64,000 nucleotides of DNA from Pseudomonas gingeri (GTDB lineage Bacteria > Pseudomonadota > Gammaproteobacteria > Pseudomonadales > Pseudomonadaceae): the NCBI RefSeq assembly GCF_013385425.1, contig NZ_JACAQA010000005.1:518652-582651 (forward strand), in the 5' to 3' direction. Shown piece after piece: positions 45,876-51,491 of this stretch (positions are counted from its first letter, which is position 1; every line of letters begins with the position of its first letter). A program made the translations under genes and the position numbers. A model generated the notes under the pieces. The model saw nothing but the letters and a program-made list of their open reading frames with translations, was not told where the DNA came from and ran no database searches.

Positions 45876-46043
45876 TGGGGCGATGCTTGCGCAGCTGCCC
45901 TTCAAATAGTGAAGGGCGGTAGTGGCACTTTGCTAAAAAACGGCAGTCAGATGGGAACTTCAACAACGACGCTCTGGTATTATTTCGCGCTCACGTTGGC
46001 AGGATGATGGAGCCCTGGAAGGCTCCGTATAGGGAATATGCTC

Positions 46044-47171
46044 ATGAACTACCTCGAACGCTCCATGTCTGCCTTGCGCTCCATCGGCATCACTTTCCCG
46101 GACCAGAATGCTCCCGTGCTGGCACTGCTGGACAAGGTATCGGTGTATGACGCCACCCGCGTCACCGCCATCGCCGCCACGCTGCAACAGTCCACGGTGT
46201 TCAATGCCGTGGTCCGCGACAAGTTGCAGAGCATGGACGTCAGCACCCGTTATGCCGATATCGCCGCCAGCTTCGATTCGATCCAGGCCGATGCCCGGCA
46301 GATGATGGAATGGATGGCCGACGGCAAGCTGCAATTCTCCGAGCGCATCCAACTGGGCTGGATGAATATGCGCCGCGGTTCGATCCCGGATCGCTTCGAG
46401 AGCATTCGCAAGAACTACCTGGATGTGGCGAAGTCGGCCAATGAGCAGATCCAGCTGGAAACCCTGATTCTCGAAGCCTATCAGGACTATCGCCTGGCGA
46501 TGAAAACGGCCGAGATAGATGCCTGCGAAGTGCAGAAAATCGCCCAGGCGAAGATGGATAGCGGGCGCCAGGGCCTGACCGAGGCCGGCGCGGCCCTGGA
46601 GGGTGCCGAGCTGGAAGCGACCGAACGGGCCAAGCTCGAACTGGCACGGGATGTCGCCTTGCGCGACCTGCAGGACGAGGACAAACGTTACCAGATCATC
46701 ACCGATATCGCCGATCAGTTGAAGACCGCCTACAACGCGGCCGAGCTGGTGTTTGCGCGCCTGAGCCAGTACCACAGCGTGAAAGAGCGGCTGTACCAGC
46801 GTGCCGTGAGCTTTTTCGCCACCAACGAAATCGTCCTGACCGGCCTGGCAGCGGGCTTTACTTCGTCCGGCGGGCTGGCCGAAGTGACCAACACCCTGAA
46901 TGCGATGAACCAGGGGATCAACTCCAGCCTGGAGATCCAGGCCAAGGTCGGCGGCGAGCAGCTGAATGCGGCGTTGAAGGCCGGCTACGGCTCGACCCTG
47001 AAGGCCAGCTCGGTCAAGGCCCTGGCCGATGCCGTGGTGGACTTCCAGGCCAGCAGCCTGAGTCTGATCCAGGAACTGCGCAAGGAGTCCTCGGCGGCGG
47101 CGGCGGAAATCGAGTCGATCACCGAGGACAGCAAGCGTCGCTTCAGCGCGCTCCTGCAAAAGGGGATCTGA
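46044..47171 (+). CDS. Helical coiled-coil protein, first gene of an unknown cluster
   Basis: This 375-residue, almost wholly helical protein has no signal peptide. Long coiled-coil stretches lie at about residues 130-235, and a small-residue-rich helix pair follows near 275-310 (IVLTGLAAGFTSSGGLAEVT). Low-level resemblance to TelA-type toxic-anion-resistance proteins is possible but not proven; relatives in Pseudomonas carry the uninformative name cell surface protein. The ATG at 46044 is 8 bases after AGGGA and is preferred to one at 46038. The next gene starts 2 bases after the stop, so the genes are coupled. Confidence 0.75.
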   Translation: MNYLERSMSALRSIGITFPDQNAPVLALLDKVSVYDATRVTAIAATLQQSTVFNAVVRDKLQSMDVSTRYADIAASFDSIQADARQMMEWMADGKLQFSERIQLGWMNMRRGSIPDRFESIRKNYLDVAKSANEQIQLETLILEAYQDYRLAMKTAEIDACEVQKIAQAKMDSGRQGLTEAGAALEGAELEATERAKLELARDVALRDLQDEDKRYQIITDIADQLKTAYNAAELVFARLSQYHSVKERLYQRAVSFFATNEIVLTGLAAGFTSSGGLAEVTNTLNAMNQGINSSLEIQAKVGGEQLNAALKAGYGSTLKASSVKALADAVVDFQASSLSLIQELRKESSAAAAEIESITEDSKRRFSALLQKGI

Positions 47172-47172
47172 A

Positions 47173-48420
47173 GTGAGCAACGTTGTCTCCCTCACCGAGC
47201 AGATGGGGGCCATGGCGCTGATCGACGAGATGCGTTTCAGCCAGGCCGAACTGCAGAAACAGCTGGACCTGCCCAAGCATCGCCTGCGGGTGGCCGAGCA
47301 GATCCGTGAGTTTTACCGGGCCAAGGGCATCGAGGTGGAGGATGCCCTGGTCGAAGAGGGCGTTCGCAACTTCTTCGCCAACCGCCTGACGTATCAGGCT
47401 CCGGCAACTTTCGGCTCGATGACCCGGCTGCTGGCACGGGTCTATATCACTCGTGGACGCTGGCTGCTGCCTACGGTAGGTGTCCTGGGAGTTGGGTTGT
47501 GGGTGCTGTTGGTTGCGCCGTCGGTCTCGGAGTTTTCTGCTCAGGCGTCGCTGAGCGCAGCACAGGGTCGAGTGGATGAGGCTAGGGCGCTGGTTGCAAG
47601 CCATGCCGGGCAGCGTGAGCAGTTGGAAAAGCGTGTCTCCACGCTGAAGGCCGATGGGCTTGTGGCGAATTTGCCGGCGGCGCGGCAGGTATTTGAACAG
47701 ACCGGGCCGGTGCTGGAGACCGCGCGTGCAGCAGAACGGATCACGCTGCCGGTGCACGTCACGGAACAGAGTTACAAAGAGGACTCCAAGCTGGCCGCCT
47801 CGGCGGTCAAGAGCCTGAAGAAGGACAGTGCCGACATGAAGGCACTGGCGACTCAGCTGGATGCGCTGAGCGCGCAAACGGACACGATCAGGCCCTGGTT
47901 GACGAAGCTGCAGGATGCGCAGGAACAAGTGCGCAAGATGGGCTTGAGCAACGCCGATGCCGGGCAGTTCCAACCGCTGTTTGCCAAGGTCGATCAGGCC
48001 GTCAAGGTCATGGATGCGACGGCCGCCGAACAGGGATTGAAGGAGGTTGAGCAACTGCGGGCGATAGCGGCGACACCCTTGACCCTGGAAGTGGTCAGCC
48101 GTACCGGCGAGAAGTCGATGGTTGAGCGCAATTTCGATCCGACCGGGGGCAAGTCCTGGTACCTGCTGGCCGAGGCGCTCGACGCCTCGGGCAATGTCGT
48201 CCCGTTGCCCATCACCAGTGTCGAGACCGGGGAGCGGCGTTATGCCTCGATATTTGGCGTGCGGGTCAATCAGGCCACCTACCAGGCGGCCAAGAATGAC
48301 AAGCAGGCGGATGGCCTTGTCGATGATCGCCTGATGGGGAAAAAGGCGGCCAACTCGCTGTCCTTTACGTTCGTCAAAGGACCGGTCAAAACCAAACCTG
48401 ATTACATCCTGGAGTGGTAA
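47173..48420 (+). CDS. Membrane-anchored coiled-coil protein (DUF6384-like)
   Basis: This 415-residue protein starts at GTG with AGGGG upstream. A cytoplasmic N-terminal domain of about 90 residues (EQMGAMALIDEMRFSQAELQ, then REFYRAKGIEVEDALVEEG) is followed by one membrane helix at about 97-115 (WLLPTVGVLGVGLWVLLVAP). A long coiled coil runs from 120 to 300 and a beta-rich C-terminal domain (TLEVVSRTGEKSMVERNFDP onward) ends the protein. The coiled coil and last domain should be periplasmic. The stop shares a base with the next start (TAATG). Function unknown. Confidence 0.75.
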   Translation: MSNVVSLTEQMGAMALIDEMRFSQAELQKQLDLPKHRLRVAEQIREFYRAKGIEVEDALVEEGVRNFFANRLTYQAPATFGSMTRLLARVYITRGRWLLPTVGVLGVGLWVLLVAPSVSEFSAQASLSAAQGRVDEARALVASHAGQREQLEKRVSTLKADGLVANLPAARQVFEQTGPVLETARAAERITLPVHVTEQSYKEDSKLAASAVKSLKKDSADMKALATQLDALSAQTDTIRPWLTKLQDAQEQVRKMGLSNADAGQFQPLFAKVDQAVKVMDATAAEQGLKEVEQLRAIAATPLTLEVVSRTGEKSMVERNFDPTGGKSWYLLAEALDASGNVVPLPITSVETGERRYASIFGVRVNQATYQAAKNDKQADGLVDDRLMGKKAANSLSFTFVKGPVKTKPDYILEW

Positions 48421-49784
48421 TGAACGCGAGCCGCATAGAAGCTTCCATCCGCGACAACTCCCGGAACCTGGAGGCACAGCTGCGCCAACTGCAGCTCGAG
48501 TTGTCCGCTGCCCACGATCAGGAGTTGCGCCTGCAGCAGGGGCTCGGCAACGCCTTTCCGCATATCGCCAATTATCAGCTGTCCGGCGGTGCCCCGCTGT
48601 CTGTCGAGGTTCAGCGTTTGCTCGACCAGCGCGAGCAGGCGGAGGCCGCTTTGCGTCAGGAGCTGGCGCAGGTGGAGGAGGGCATTGCCGGGCAGTTGCA
48701 GGTGATCTCGGGCTTGGCCGAGGCGCTTGAGACCCAGGTGGCGGACCTTGATCAGCAAGTCGAGCAGGACCTCCGGGCCCAGCAGCAGGCCGCCTTGATC
48801 AGCGAGGCCGACGAGCAGTCCTACAAGGAACTGCGCGATGAATGTCGGCTCAAGCTCCAGGCATTCCAGGCCGACCCGCTTTATGTCTATCTGCGCGACC
48901 GCGGATTCGGTACCGAGGGTTATGTCGGTCGGTTTGTCTGGCGCGGGCTGGACCGTTGGGTGGCGCGACTGTGCAATTTCACCCAGAACAGTGCCGCCGA
49001 GCGCACGCTGCTGGCCATGCAGCGGGCCAATGAAGCAGTTGGCAAGGAGCGTCAGGCAAATCGGGCGGCCCAGGAGGCCGAGCGCGCGCGGCTGCATCAA
49101 CGTGCCCTGTCCGCCAGCGATCTGCCGGTCTTGCAAGAGCGTCAGCGGCAAGCGCAGCAGGCGCTGGAAGCGGGCAAGGCGCAGGCCAATGCGCTCCATC
49201 AGCGCCTGGCGCCCTACGTCAGCAAGCGTGACGAGGGTTTCGCCAAGGCCTCCGAGCTGTTGTCCCGGCAACTGGCCGAGATGAATGACCTGACCCTGGA
49301 GCAACTGGCCGGACAGACCCAGGGTGCGCAGGATGACGAGCTGGTGCGCAGGGTACGTGATCTGCGCGCTGAGCTGGAGGTGTTGCGGTTGCGCGTGCCT
49401 TCTCTGGAGCGGCAGTGCCGGGACGCCGAGGCCAGCTATGAGCTGGCCAAGCAACTGGAGCGTACGTTGCAGTCAGGGGGACTCATCAGTTCCCGCTACG
49501 ACTATCAGAACGTGGATCTTGATGGCTTGCTCGTCGGGTTCATGCGGGGCGCCCTGTCGCTCTCCCAGGTGGTGAGTGAGGTGGACAATAACCGCGAGTT
49601 CATCAGGGTTGCTCCCAGCCCGAGCAGCAGTGCCCGTTCGAGCAGCAGTCGGAGCCGCGGTTCGCACAGCAGTTCGGGCAGCTTCTTTGGGGGCGGTTCG
49701 TCGGGCGGTTCCAGTTCCGCTAGCTCGTCCGGTTCTTCCAGCTCAGGGAGTGGCGGCGGGTTCTCCACCAGCGACAGTCTCTAG
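48420..49784 (+). CDS. Coiled-coil protein with Ser/Gly-rich tail
   Basis: This 454-residue protein has dense coiled coils at about residues 1-150 and 190-355 around a small globular part with VYLRDRGFGTEGYVGRFVWR and DRWVARLCNF. It ends in a low-complexity tail (398-454) made almost only of Ser and Gly with FFGGGSSGG and GSGGGFSTSDSL. Such tails occur on TPM/YgcG-type envelope proteins. No signal peptide or membrane helix is visible. It overlaps the previous gene by one base and ends just before a strong terminator. Confidence 0.72.
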   Translation: MNASRIEASIRDNSRNLEAQLRQLQLELSAAHDQELRLQQGLGNAFPHIANYQLSGGAPLSVEVQRLLDQREQAEAALRQELAQVEEGIAGQLQVISGLAEALETQVADLDQQVEQDLRAQQQAALISEADEQSYKELRDECRLKLQAFQADPLYVYLRDRGFGTEGYVGRFVWRGLDRWVARLCNFTQNSAAERTLLAMQRANEAVGKERQANRAAQEAERARLHQRALSASDLPVLQERQRQAQQALEAGKAQANALHQRLAPYVSKRDEGFAKASELLSRQLAEMNDLTLEQLAGQTQGAQDDELVRRVRDLRAELEVLRLRVPSLERQCRDAEASYELAKQLERTLQSGGLISSRYDYQNVDLDGLLVGFMRGALSLSQVVSEVDNNREFIRVAPSPSSSARSSSSRSRGSHSSSGSFFGGGSSGGSSSASSSGSSSSGSGGGFSTSDSL

Positions 49785-49808
49785 ATCGAAAGGTCTGACG
49801 GAACAAGG

Positions 49809-49842
49809 ACGGGGCAGCACAGGCTGCCCCGTGTCGTTTCTC
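49809..49842 (+). terminator. Terminator closing the three-gene cluster
   Basis: Perfect 10-bp arms ACGGGGCAGC and GCTGCCCCGT with an ACAG loop are followed by GTCGTTTCT, 24 bases after the stop of the third gene. It separates the cluster from the small gene at 49981. Confidence 0.7.
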
Positions 49843-49980
49843 CCGGGCTCGATCGGCCAGGCGTCGGGCGGTTTCCGCCCAATGGTCATCCGTGGGTGCA
49901 AACCGGCTGAACCGTCATGGCCGACACTACTCTATCCTTATGCAGGGCTTCTCACTCTCACACGTGAAGGGTTAATCAGG

Positions 49981-50402: not shown

Positions 50403-51272
50403 TCAACCGCCCTGAGCGGTTTTCAGGCATTTGAGCTGCGAGAAGTCCTGGCGCATTTCGTCGATCTTCTTCAGTAGCCGCGTCCGTTGGTCGGCGTTGC
50501 TCTCGGCCATCAGCGCCACCAGCAGGCTGCGGGTGGCCTGCTCCGCACGCTCGTGAGCCTGGCGGTACTCGGTGGTCCACAGGCTGTCCTGATCTTGCAG
50601 CAACTGTTCGATCCGTTGCGGGAAGTCCGCGCGCTGACGCTGTTCGACCGCCTCGCTCAACTGCATCTGCCAGTTCATCCGGTTGGCCACCCATAGCCGG
50701 TTCTGTTCGCCGAGGCTGGTGGACCAGGCGGTGATGCGCTGTTGCTGGCTCAGGCTCAATGGCCCCAGCCAGCCCTTGAGGCGCTTGCTCATGCGCTCGG
50801 CGCGGTCGCGGATCTGTTCGTCGACGGGCGGGGTCACGTACTCCGCTCGATGTTCACGCTGATCCTTGGCAAAAGCCTGGCTCATCTCGCTTACCTGTTG
50901 ATCGCTCAGGCCCCGCAGCAACTCGACCGCCGAGGGCGTGACGGTGCGCGTGACCTGGGCAATCGCCTGGCGGGCCTCGGCGGTGCGGGCCTGCACGTTG
51001 GCATCGGTGACCTGACGGGTTTCGACCATCTGCTGCACGCGCTCGAGCCAGTCCAGGTAGTCCGGCAGTTGCGTGGTGCAATGCCAGTGCAGGTGCTCCT
51101 TGAGGCGTTCGCGGAACCAGTCTTTCTGCCCGCGGTTCATGTCCACGTAGTCGCCGAGGGTCCAGGGAATGATCACATCGAGGTTGCGGTAGGCCAGGCC
51201 TGCCCGCGAGCAGGCGCCGATGGTCAGGCTCAGGAGCAGCAACCAGAAGAGGGAGGTCAGCCGGTACGACAT
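50403..51272 (-). CDS. DUF6279-like lipoprotein
   Basis: This 289-residue protein has a lipoprotein signal peptide: hydrophobic LFWLLLLSLTIGAC with the lipobox ending in C21. The mature part is helical and charged with no membrane segment, so it should be attached to the outer (or inner) membrane facing the periplasm. Family members match DUF6279; the role is unknown. The ATG at 51270-51272 follows AGGA by 7 bases. It is convergent with the winged-helix gene. The 219 bases before it hold nothing recognisable. Confidence 0.8.
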   Translation of the reverse strand: MSYRLTSLFWLLLLSLTIGACSRAGLAYRNLDVIIPWTLGDYVDMNRGQKDWFRERLKEHLHWHCTTQLPDYLDWLERVQQMVETRQVTDANVQARTAEARQAIAQVTRTVTPSAVELLRGLSDQQVSEMSQAFAKDQREHRAEYVTPPVDEQIRDRAERMSKRLKGWLGPLSLSQQQRITAWSTSLGEQNRLWVANRMNWQMQLSEAVEQRQRADFPQRIEQLLQDQDSLWTTEYRQAHERAEQATRSLLVALMAESNADQRTRLLKKIDEMRQDFSQLKCLKTAQGG

Positions 51273-51491
51273 GGATGAATCCTGATGGGGGCATCTCTCC
51301 ATGGAACGCTTCTGCGGCCAGTGGTTCAACCGCTCAATGGTTTCCATCGATGACCATGGCGGCTGATACGGGCGCAAGGGGATTTGTGCACGGGTGATCG
51401 GCGCGGTATCTGCAATGGGGGCGGGAGTGTTGCTTCAGCCCTGCGCCTTGAGGTTCAAAGCGCAGAGTGGCTTGGGTGTTGCGCGGGGGAA

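Follow-up and report, generated by a model that had tools for sequence, protein, structure and literature searches.

Three co-directional genes, here called g1, g2 and g3, form an undescribed trio in Pseudomonas gingeri, and no characterised system to which they belong was found. They lie in a 64,000-nt stretch of contig NZ_JACAQA010000005.1 (the window, whose coordinates are used throughout). A new observation is a pairing between two of the products: g2 bears a beta-rich C-terminal end domain closing on tryptophan (W), g3 bears a conserved C-terminal tip, and the two tend to be present or absent together. With this matched loss, genes of unknown function acquire a concrete pairing that can be tested. 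The chances are about even that the three genes make up a self-contained module, spread by horizontal transfer, whose products build an assembly at the inner membrane. Held more tentatively, a shade below even, is the fuller reading of a mobile inner-membrane machine that combines a near-invariant g1 hub with exchangeable g2/g3 adaptor pairs, the periplasmic g2 domain and a membrane-delivered g3 tail and tip being a matched pair whose gain, loss and duplication go hand in hand, and that is shared by bacteria, megaplasmids and a jumbo phage for conflict or membrane protection. The trio and its parts are placed as follows (aa, amino acids; KD, Kyte–Doolittle hydrophobicity).

45886–49865, no strand: acquired or lost islet holding the trio, absent in the close relative G006 (limits by blastn)
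46044–47171, + strand: g1, all-helical hub protein of 375 aa, without known family
47173–48420, + strand: g2, DUF6384 membrane protein of 415 aa, GTG start
47173–47448, + strand: g2 N-terminal head (aa 1–92), probably cytoplasmic, retained in short g2 copies
47461–47517, + strand: g2 membrane segment (aa 97–115), N-in by the positive-inside rule
48073–48417, + strand: g2 C-terminal beta-rich domain (aa 301–415), last residues ILEW
48420–49784, + strand: g3, coiled-coil protein of 454 aa with a Ser/Gly tail, without known family
48840–49049, + strand: g3 core region (aa 141–210), the remnant in mini-g3 copies
49527–49583, + strand: g3 hydrophobic stretch before the tail (aa 370–388), KD 1.25 here and up to 2.53 in relatives
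49590–49751, + strand: g3 Ser/Gly-rich tail (aa 391–444)
49752–49781, + strand: conserved tip at the g3 C-terminus, GGGFSTSDSL in this copy, F-ended in most
49809–49832, + strand: terminator-like hairpin 3' of g3

Pairing of the g2 end domain and the g3 tip

Counts of W-ended g2 and tipped g3 copies are equal in 81 of 88 uncut loci, with the calls made by patterns rather than profiles and near relatives included among the 88; the contig-cut loci L060, L077 and L097 were dropped. Among the loci with a single g2 and a single g3 (n = 74), 64 have both features, eight have neither, two have the tip only and none has the end domain only. A first, stricter pattern had given 60 with both, four with the end domain only, two with the tip only and eight with neither. 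The association is strong when ancestry is ignored (Fisher p 3e-9). Where the g2 end domain is lost, the g3 tail and tip are usually lost too, and such co-loss occurred in at least two lineages, Massilia/Pseudoduganella and a second Pseudomonas site. The pattern is also seen within loci that hold two sets each (L031, L032, L040, L043 and L047), which combine one complete and one reduced g2 with one tipped and one tip-less g3. Unequal counts were obtained at L015, L037, L038, L039, L045, L049 and L056, where the 'W' calls at L037–L039 look spurious. L094 may have a broken frame, and L046 was counted as having neither feature but is a true exception, its g3 ending in TRTTDNF.

In g3 the tip is the best conserved part. 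Mean pairwise identity is 0.23–0.24 in the coils, 0.38 in the core, 0.30 in the Ser/Gly tail and 0.65 in the C-terminal decapeptide, whose last residue is F in 64 and L in 14 of 96 long copies. Mini-g3 copies of 106–135 aa retain the core (aa 141–210). In g2, identity is 0.43 in the head, 0.18 in the coil and 0.42 in the end domain. Lysine and arginine are commoner before than after the membrane segment in 75 of the 85 g2 copies that have a clear segment, and the g2 head is therefore probably cytoplasmic and the end domain probably periplasmic.

With the g2 end domain predicted to lie outside and no obvious export signal in g3, the g3 tail might reach its partner by way of the hydrophobic stretch that precedes it. 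The most hydrophobic stretch of g3 begins 25–130 aa from the C-terminus, near the tail, in 69 of the 96 long copies. Strongly hydrophobic segments (KD ≥1.6) occur in 10 of 102 copies, always directly before the tail and 44–80 aa from the end. As an observation in its own right, g3 at L031, L032 and L045 has a strong membrane-like segment (KD 1.9–2.5) directly before the Ser/Gly tail.

Genes, signals and protein families

On one side of the trio is a DEAD-box helicase gene; on the other come a small gene and then a DUF6279 gene. That the trio consists of three long co-directional open reading frames (ORFs), as a first-pass annotation had proposed, was confirmed, and purifying selection marks all three as genes: against four close relatives the ratio of nonsynonymous to synonymous substitution rates (dN/dS) is 0.04–0.09 for g1, 0.19–0.41 for g2 and 0.14–0.37 for g3. 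Translation of g1 starts at the ATG at 46044, where homologues align, with a further in-frame ATG at 46038. The gap between g1 and g2 is one base (47172) rather than the two first reported, and the TAATG overlap of g2 and g3 is as described (TAA 48418–48420, ATG 48420–48422, one shared base). The coupling of the three genes goes beyond chance, since other phyla, plasmids and a phage show them in the same arrangement. A strong terminator had been proposed 3' of g3; the hairpin at 49809–49832 is a good one (10 pairs, -26.1 kcal/mol, z -2.69), and the claim stands only in part because its stretch of Ts is short (GTCGTTTC). Between 45750 and 50000, nothing matched a sigma-70-type promoter. The DUF6279 gene (50403–51377) lies on the opposite strand 3' of the trio (Pfam 2.6e-54).

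Only g2 has a family name. It is a clear member of DUF6384 (PF19911; 1.8e-46, 159.1 bits against a curated cut-off of 25), a profile that also matches all 49 members of set A5, so the proposed family check came out positive. Its single membrane segment (Kyte–Doolittle 2.12 at residues 97–115) and its beta-rich end domain were likewise borne out, the latter with a predicted local distance difference test score (pLDDT) of 78–98 in 10-residue blocks, mostly ≥94, within a model of pLDDT 88.5. Compared with sequences of solved structures, g2 gave nothing below E 0.036, and a fold search with the whole model returned generic coiled coils (best Foldseek E 0.049). Twelve uncut g2 copies are shorter than 200 aa; all retain the head and eight have a clear membrane segment. 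Some g2 copies lacking the W-ended terminus end in ITARF, SASF, TASF or LDSF, as if the tip had moved to g2 (L004, L040, L043, L047, L051, L052, L054 and L059). The terms 'DUF6384' and 'PF19911' were not found in the literature searched, and neither was 'merozoite surface protein 3b' in a paper that also mentions Pseudomonas; that literature includes few subscription papers, so mentions elsewhere in print may exist.

Although at least 532 g1 relatives occur among the GTDB representatives, neither g1 nor g3 could be assigned to a family of the scanned libraries: their window copies have no Pfam hit at E ≤1, and apart from g2 as DUF6384 nothing credible for the trio came from NCBIfam, PADLOC or PHROGs. 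The likeness of g3 to TPM-type envelope proteins, suggested at first, traces to the low-complexity tail and nothing else, since neither a TPM domain nor any other Pfam family matches the window g3 at E ≤1. Against sequences of solved structures, g3 returned coiled coils and a match of its tail to a FAK-paxillin construct (1.1e-5); the latter was rejected as low-complexity and taken as compositional.

The nearest g1 is that of Pseudomonas sp. QS1027 (99%). Among 53 sequences from Pseudomonas, alphaproteobacteria, metagenome-assembled genomes (MAGs) of Nitrospirota and a jumbo phage, a set that excluded more diverged plasmid copies, 46 g1 columns are invariant; 31 are invariant in an 11-sequence set that includes such copies. 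Conservation is highest in residues 191–255 and 256–320 (identity 0.66). The AlphaFold model agrees with the expected helical protein, being all-helical with three helices of more than 50 residues, residues 274–321 unresolved and a pLDDT of 71.5. Sequences of solved structures gave nothing below E 0.33 for g1, and blastn found no g1 match in E. coli genomes.

Distribution, mobility and neighbours

Within the genus, g1 was found in 16 of 199 genomes, the host included. Strong g2 matches lie in the same 16, three more at E 3e-4 to 8e-4 being chance-level, and g3 is found in these 16 as well, besides a remnant in G347 (a 157-aa frame); for g2 and g3, scoring covered the eight best candidates of each genome. 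The three genes therefore co-occur as had been supposed, and they were seen apart only in this lone g3 remnant and in the cyanophage Dfl-JY45, which has g2-g3 with no g1 found. In a phylum sample, g1 is present in two of 299 genomes, again including the host. A hub so conserved and yet so rare points to a specific role that selection keeps and discards.

Ninety-five loci were compared, 80 found via g1 in genome contigs and the rest being plasmid, phage and viral-contig loci plus the window, with the jumbo phage phiR1-37 counted twice (L012, L103). Plain g1-g2-g3 order is found in 69, with a further five having a g2 of less than 200 aa, three cut by contig ends, three in the order g3-g1-g2, 14 with extra g2 and/or g3, and the cyanophage. 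Exactly one g1 is present in 94 of the 95. phiR1-37 carries g1-g2-g3 in that order; the phage genome with the trio measures 262 kb and that with g2-g3 only 209 kb. On the timing of phage expression, the main-text passages of PMC4848604 do not name g190–g192. All ten plasmids that match g2 also match g1, and an eleventh, Rhizobium pRlX5, matches g1 with g2 and g3 detected by hidden Markov model (HMM). Layout was examined in ten of the 11, the P. silesiensis record being left out: the trio was found by HMM in nine of nine stretches (L009–L011, L014–L018 and Rhizobium pRlX5), and the P. aeruginosa PA83 plasmid has a matching layout by annotation.

All 11 g1-matching plasmids are 323 kb to 1.39 Mb in size. 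Together with the large phage genomes and the clustering of the phage g1 with three megaplasmid copies (100/98 in the g1 tree, on long branches), this could suggest a scaffold that positions or segregates very large replicons. Such a role is improbable: several copies sit in chromosomal-looking contigs of 2.7–5.5 Mb (L025, L027, L035, L076), the host groups have large plasmids anyway, and no DNA-binding domain was found.

At the window locus, the three genes were gained or lost together, in one piece of ~4 kb. The relative G006, whose near flanks are 94–96% identical, lacks 45886–49865 and has 35 bases instead; its flanks (locus L151) align up to 45885 and resume at 49866. The corresponding spot holds ~0.5 kb in G004 and ~2.8 kb of other sequence in G016. 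This G016 segment (L152:5455–8219) contains unrelated ORFs, one of which we take to be a DUF899/thioredoxin-like protein, so the post-helicase site may be a small insertion hotspot. The GC content of the islet (62.4%) is close to that of the window (61.7%), which suggests that arrival was old or from a similar genome. In the midpoint-rooted g1 tree, two Nitrospirota MAGs fall among proteobacterial rows, and their bins may contain foreign contigs. Both g2 and g3 evolve faster than g1, duplicate and shrink. A second Pseudomonas setting (L037–L059), near a gene that is presumably eda (KDPG aldolase), is home to several arrays that combine one g1 with additional g2 paralogues and mini-g3 genes.

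Neighbouring genes were compared through 122 ORFs from 34 of 35 chosen loci, selected by length without a gene finder, after 13 of 135 candidates had been removed by hand. No Pfam family occurs more than twice among these 122 proteins, and no neighbour is conserved beyond local synteny. Since no enzyme domain was found in g1–g3 either, and coiled coils are present, a surface, shape or niche structure without a conflict or stress role comes into view. This is unlikely, as export signs are few (a hydrophobic N-terminus in two of 94 g1 and two of 96 long g3 copies, by hydrophobicity and without a signal-peptide predictor) and the trio is patchy within one genus, yet g1 is strongly constrained.

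A defence-island origin was considered and rejected: each of 23 PADLOC models has a single match, and judged by the model names these amount to about three of the 122 neighbour proteins. PADLOC 2023 gave no defence match to the window g1–g3 (best E 0.0095), g2 and g3 being covered by their window copies; g1 members gave scattered matches (best 1e-5, at most four of 53), taken as coiled-coil noise. Some individual settings are recorded here. On two clinical Pseudomonas megaplasmids (L009, L138) the trio lies ~5 kb from a type IV CRISPR csf2 gene, and at L009 a type IIG restriction-methylase gene is upstream. A dCTP deaminase gene is near the trio on three Pseudomonas megaplasmids (L011, L017, L018), two of which also share StiP-domain and peptidyl-tRNA hydrolase genes. 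On pMPPla107 the trio adjoins StiP-domain, metallophosphoesterase and peptidyl-tRNA hydrolase genes. Passages of PMC8628069 mention experimental-evolution work on this plasmid that names skaA, conceivably one of the trio genes.

Proposed assembly and known systems

We infer, in line with the first-pass annotation, that the three products make up a single structure that spans the inner membrane or serves as its scaffold. In this assembly g1 would oligomerise beneath the membrane, the g2 head would recruit g1, and g3 would bridge via its core. Tail and tip of g3 may be brought to the g2 C-terminal domain by insertion of the preceding hydrophobic stretch into the membrane, and the tip would putatively dock there. 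As to benefit, membrane integrity or exclusion of competing elements on behalf of the carrying host, megaplasmid or phage is a guess, and a long way from likely; it is offered because the trio persists in chromosome-like contigs, megaplasmids and a phage alike and nothing in it looks enzymatic.

Several points weigh against the proposed assembly. Loci L019–L098 were found through g1, so its presence there is by selection. A clear membrane segment is missing in 92 of the 102 g3 copies, the window copy included, yet the g2 domain is placed in the periplasm. Four of the 12 uncut short g2 copies (L031–L034) also lack a clear segment, and membrane anchoring is therefore not universal. The pairwise divergences of g1, g2 and g3 correlate (r 0.91–0.94, 66 loci), as is expected because co-inheritance alone gives such correlation. 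Finally, the g1 model is of moderate quality and is that of a single chain, not a complex.

The structure of g1 raises the alternative that it is an intracellular relative of ClyA/XaxA-type alpha-pore-formers, held in check by g2/g3 and released by a trigger to permeabilise the inner membrane in abortive infection or element conflict. The first 17 of 50 second-look rows in a VIA structure comparison are ClyA-like chains, the best being XaxA (6gy8_A; Z 13.7 over 276 residues at 5.1 Å, from the pLDDT 71.5 model), and the patchy, mobile distribution and duplicated partner genes would suit such a role. Helical bundles often reach Z 13–14 without kinship, however, according to the tool's own note, and in Foldseek the best ClyA-like chains are weak (E 0.029–0.066) and rank behind two chemoreceptor coils. 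The fold looked for is a five-helix bundle, and the g1 model shows three helices of more than 50 residues. The membrane-active part of the ClyA-type family lies between helices 4 and 5, according to passages of PMC6162564. No clear hydrophobic membrane-inserting segment was found in g1 (maximum KD 1.37 in the window copy, KD ≥1.6 in two of 94 copies), an amphipathic one being still possible. With so few neighbours matching defence models and the trio itself carried by a phage, this explanation is improbable.

An envelope-stress system of TelA or PspA type, the guess made at first pass, appears improbable in its turn. In a Foldseek search of g1 against viral models, TelA/tellurite-resistance proteins rank 3, 4, 5 and 22 (E 1.3e-3 to 3.7e-2, TM 0.29–0.40), and a global hhalign comparison of g1 with TelA (probability 10.3%) reaches a score of 20.1, which none of 30 reversed controls equals (best 13.2); the gene setting on pMPPla107 has also been counted in its favour. 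Nevertheless, that score is exceeded by one control out of 29 made by circular shifting (21.8), hhalign outside global mode gives TelA (PF05816) a probability of 2.9% with no Pfam hit at E ≤1, and the same method links two TelA subsets at 99%, with the low diversity of the g1 profile (Neff 2.5–2.8) bearing on the test. A value of 96% under hhalign -sc 4 was discarded as uncalibrated, its reversed control giving 44%. TelA is present in none of five trio genomes (59 genomes scanned). For PspA/IM30 (PF04012), hhalign gave 0.2% with g1, 8.3% with g2 and 19.6% with g3, none significant; one of the 49 A5 members matches PspA at E 0.0027, taken as coiled-coil noise, and the host genome already encodes its own PspA. 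Neither link thus gained significant profile support, although a very remote kinship of g1 with TelA may exist, given that its global score surpassed every reversed control but not every shifted one.

Set beside known systems, the proposed inner-membrane assembly shares features with several. TelA is all-helical like g1, of similar length and phage-borne, but gives no significant profile match. PspA/IM30, likewise helical, acts at the inner membrane, and it too gives no significant profile match to any trio protein. ClyA/XaxA-type proteins, long antiparallel helical bundles of similar length in systems of several components, may resemble g1, and differ in their membrane-inserting segment and in sequence, no solved chain matching g1 below E 0.33. 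DUF6384 includes g2 and is itself without known function, whereas g1 and g3 stand outside any family of the scanned libraries. In the single-stranded DNA-binding protein SSB, a low-complexity linker is followed by a short conserved C-terminal tip ending in F. The g3 tip is alike in its linker and F-ended tip and differs in sequence and partner; by analogy, it may work as the SSB tip does, as a putative binding element.

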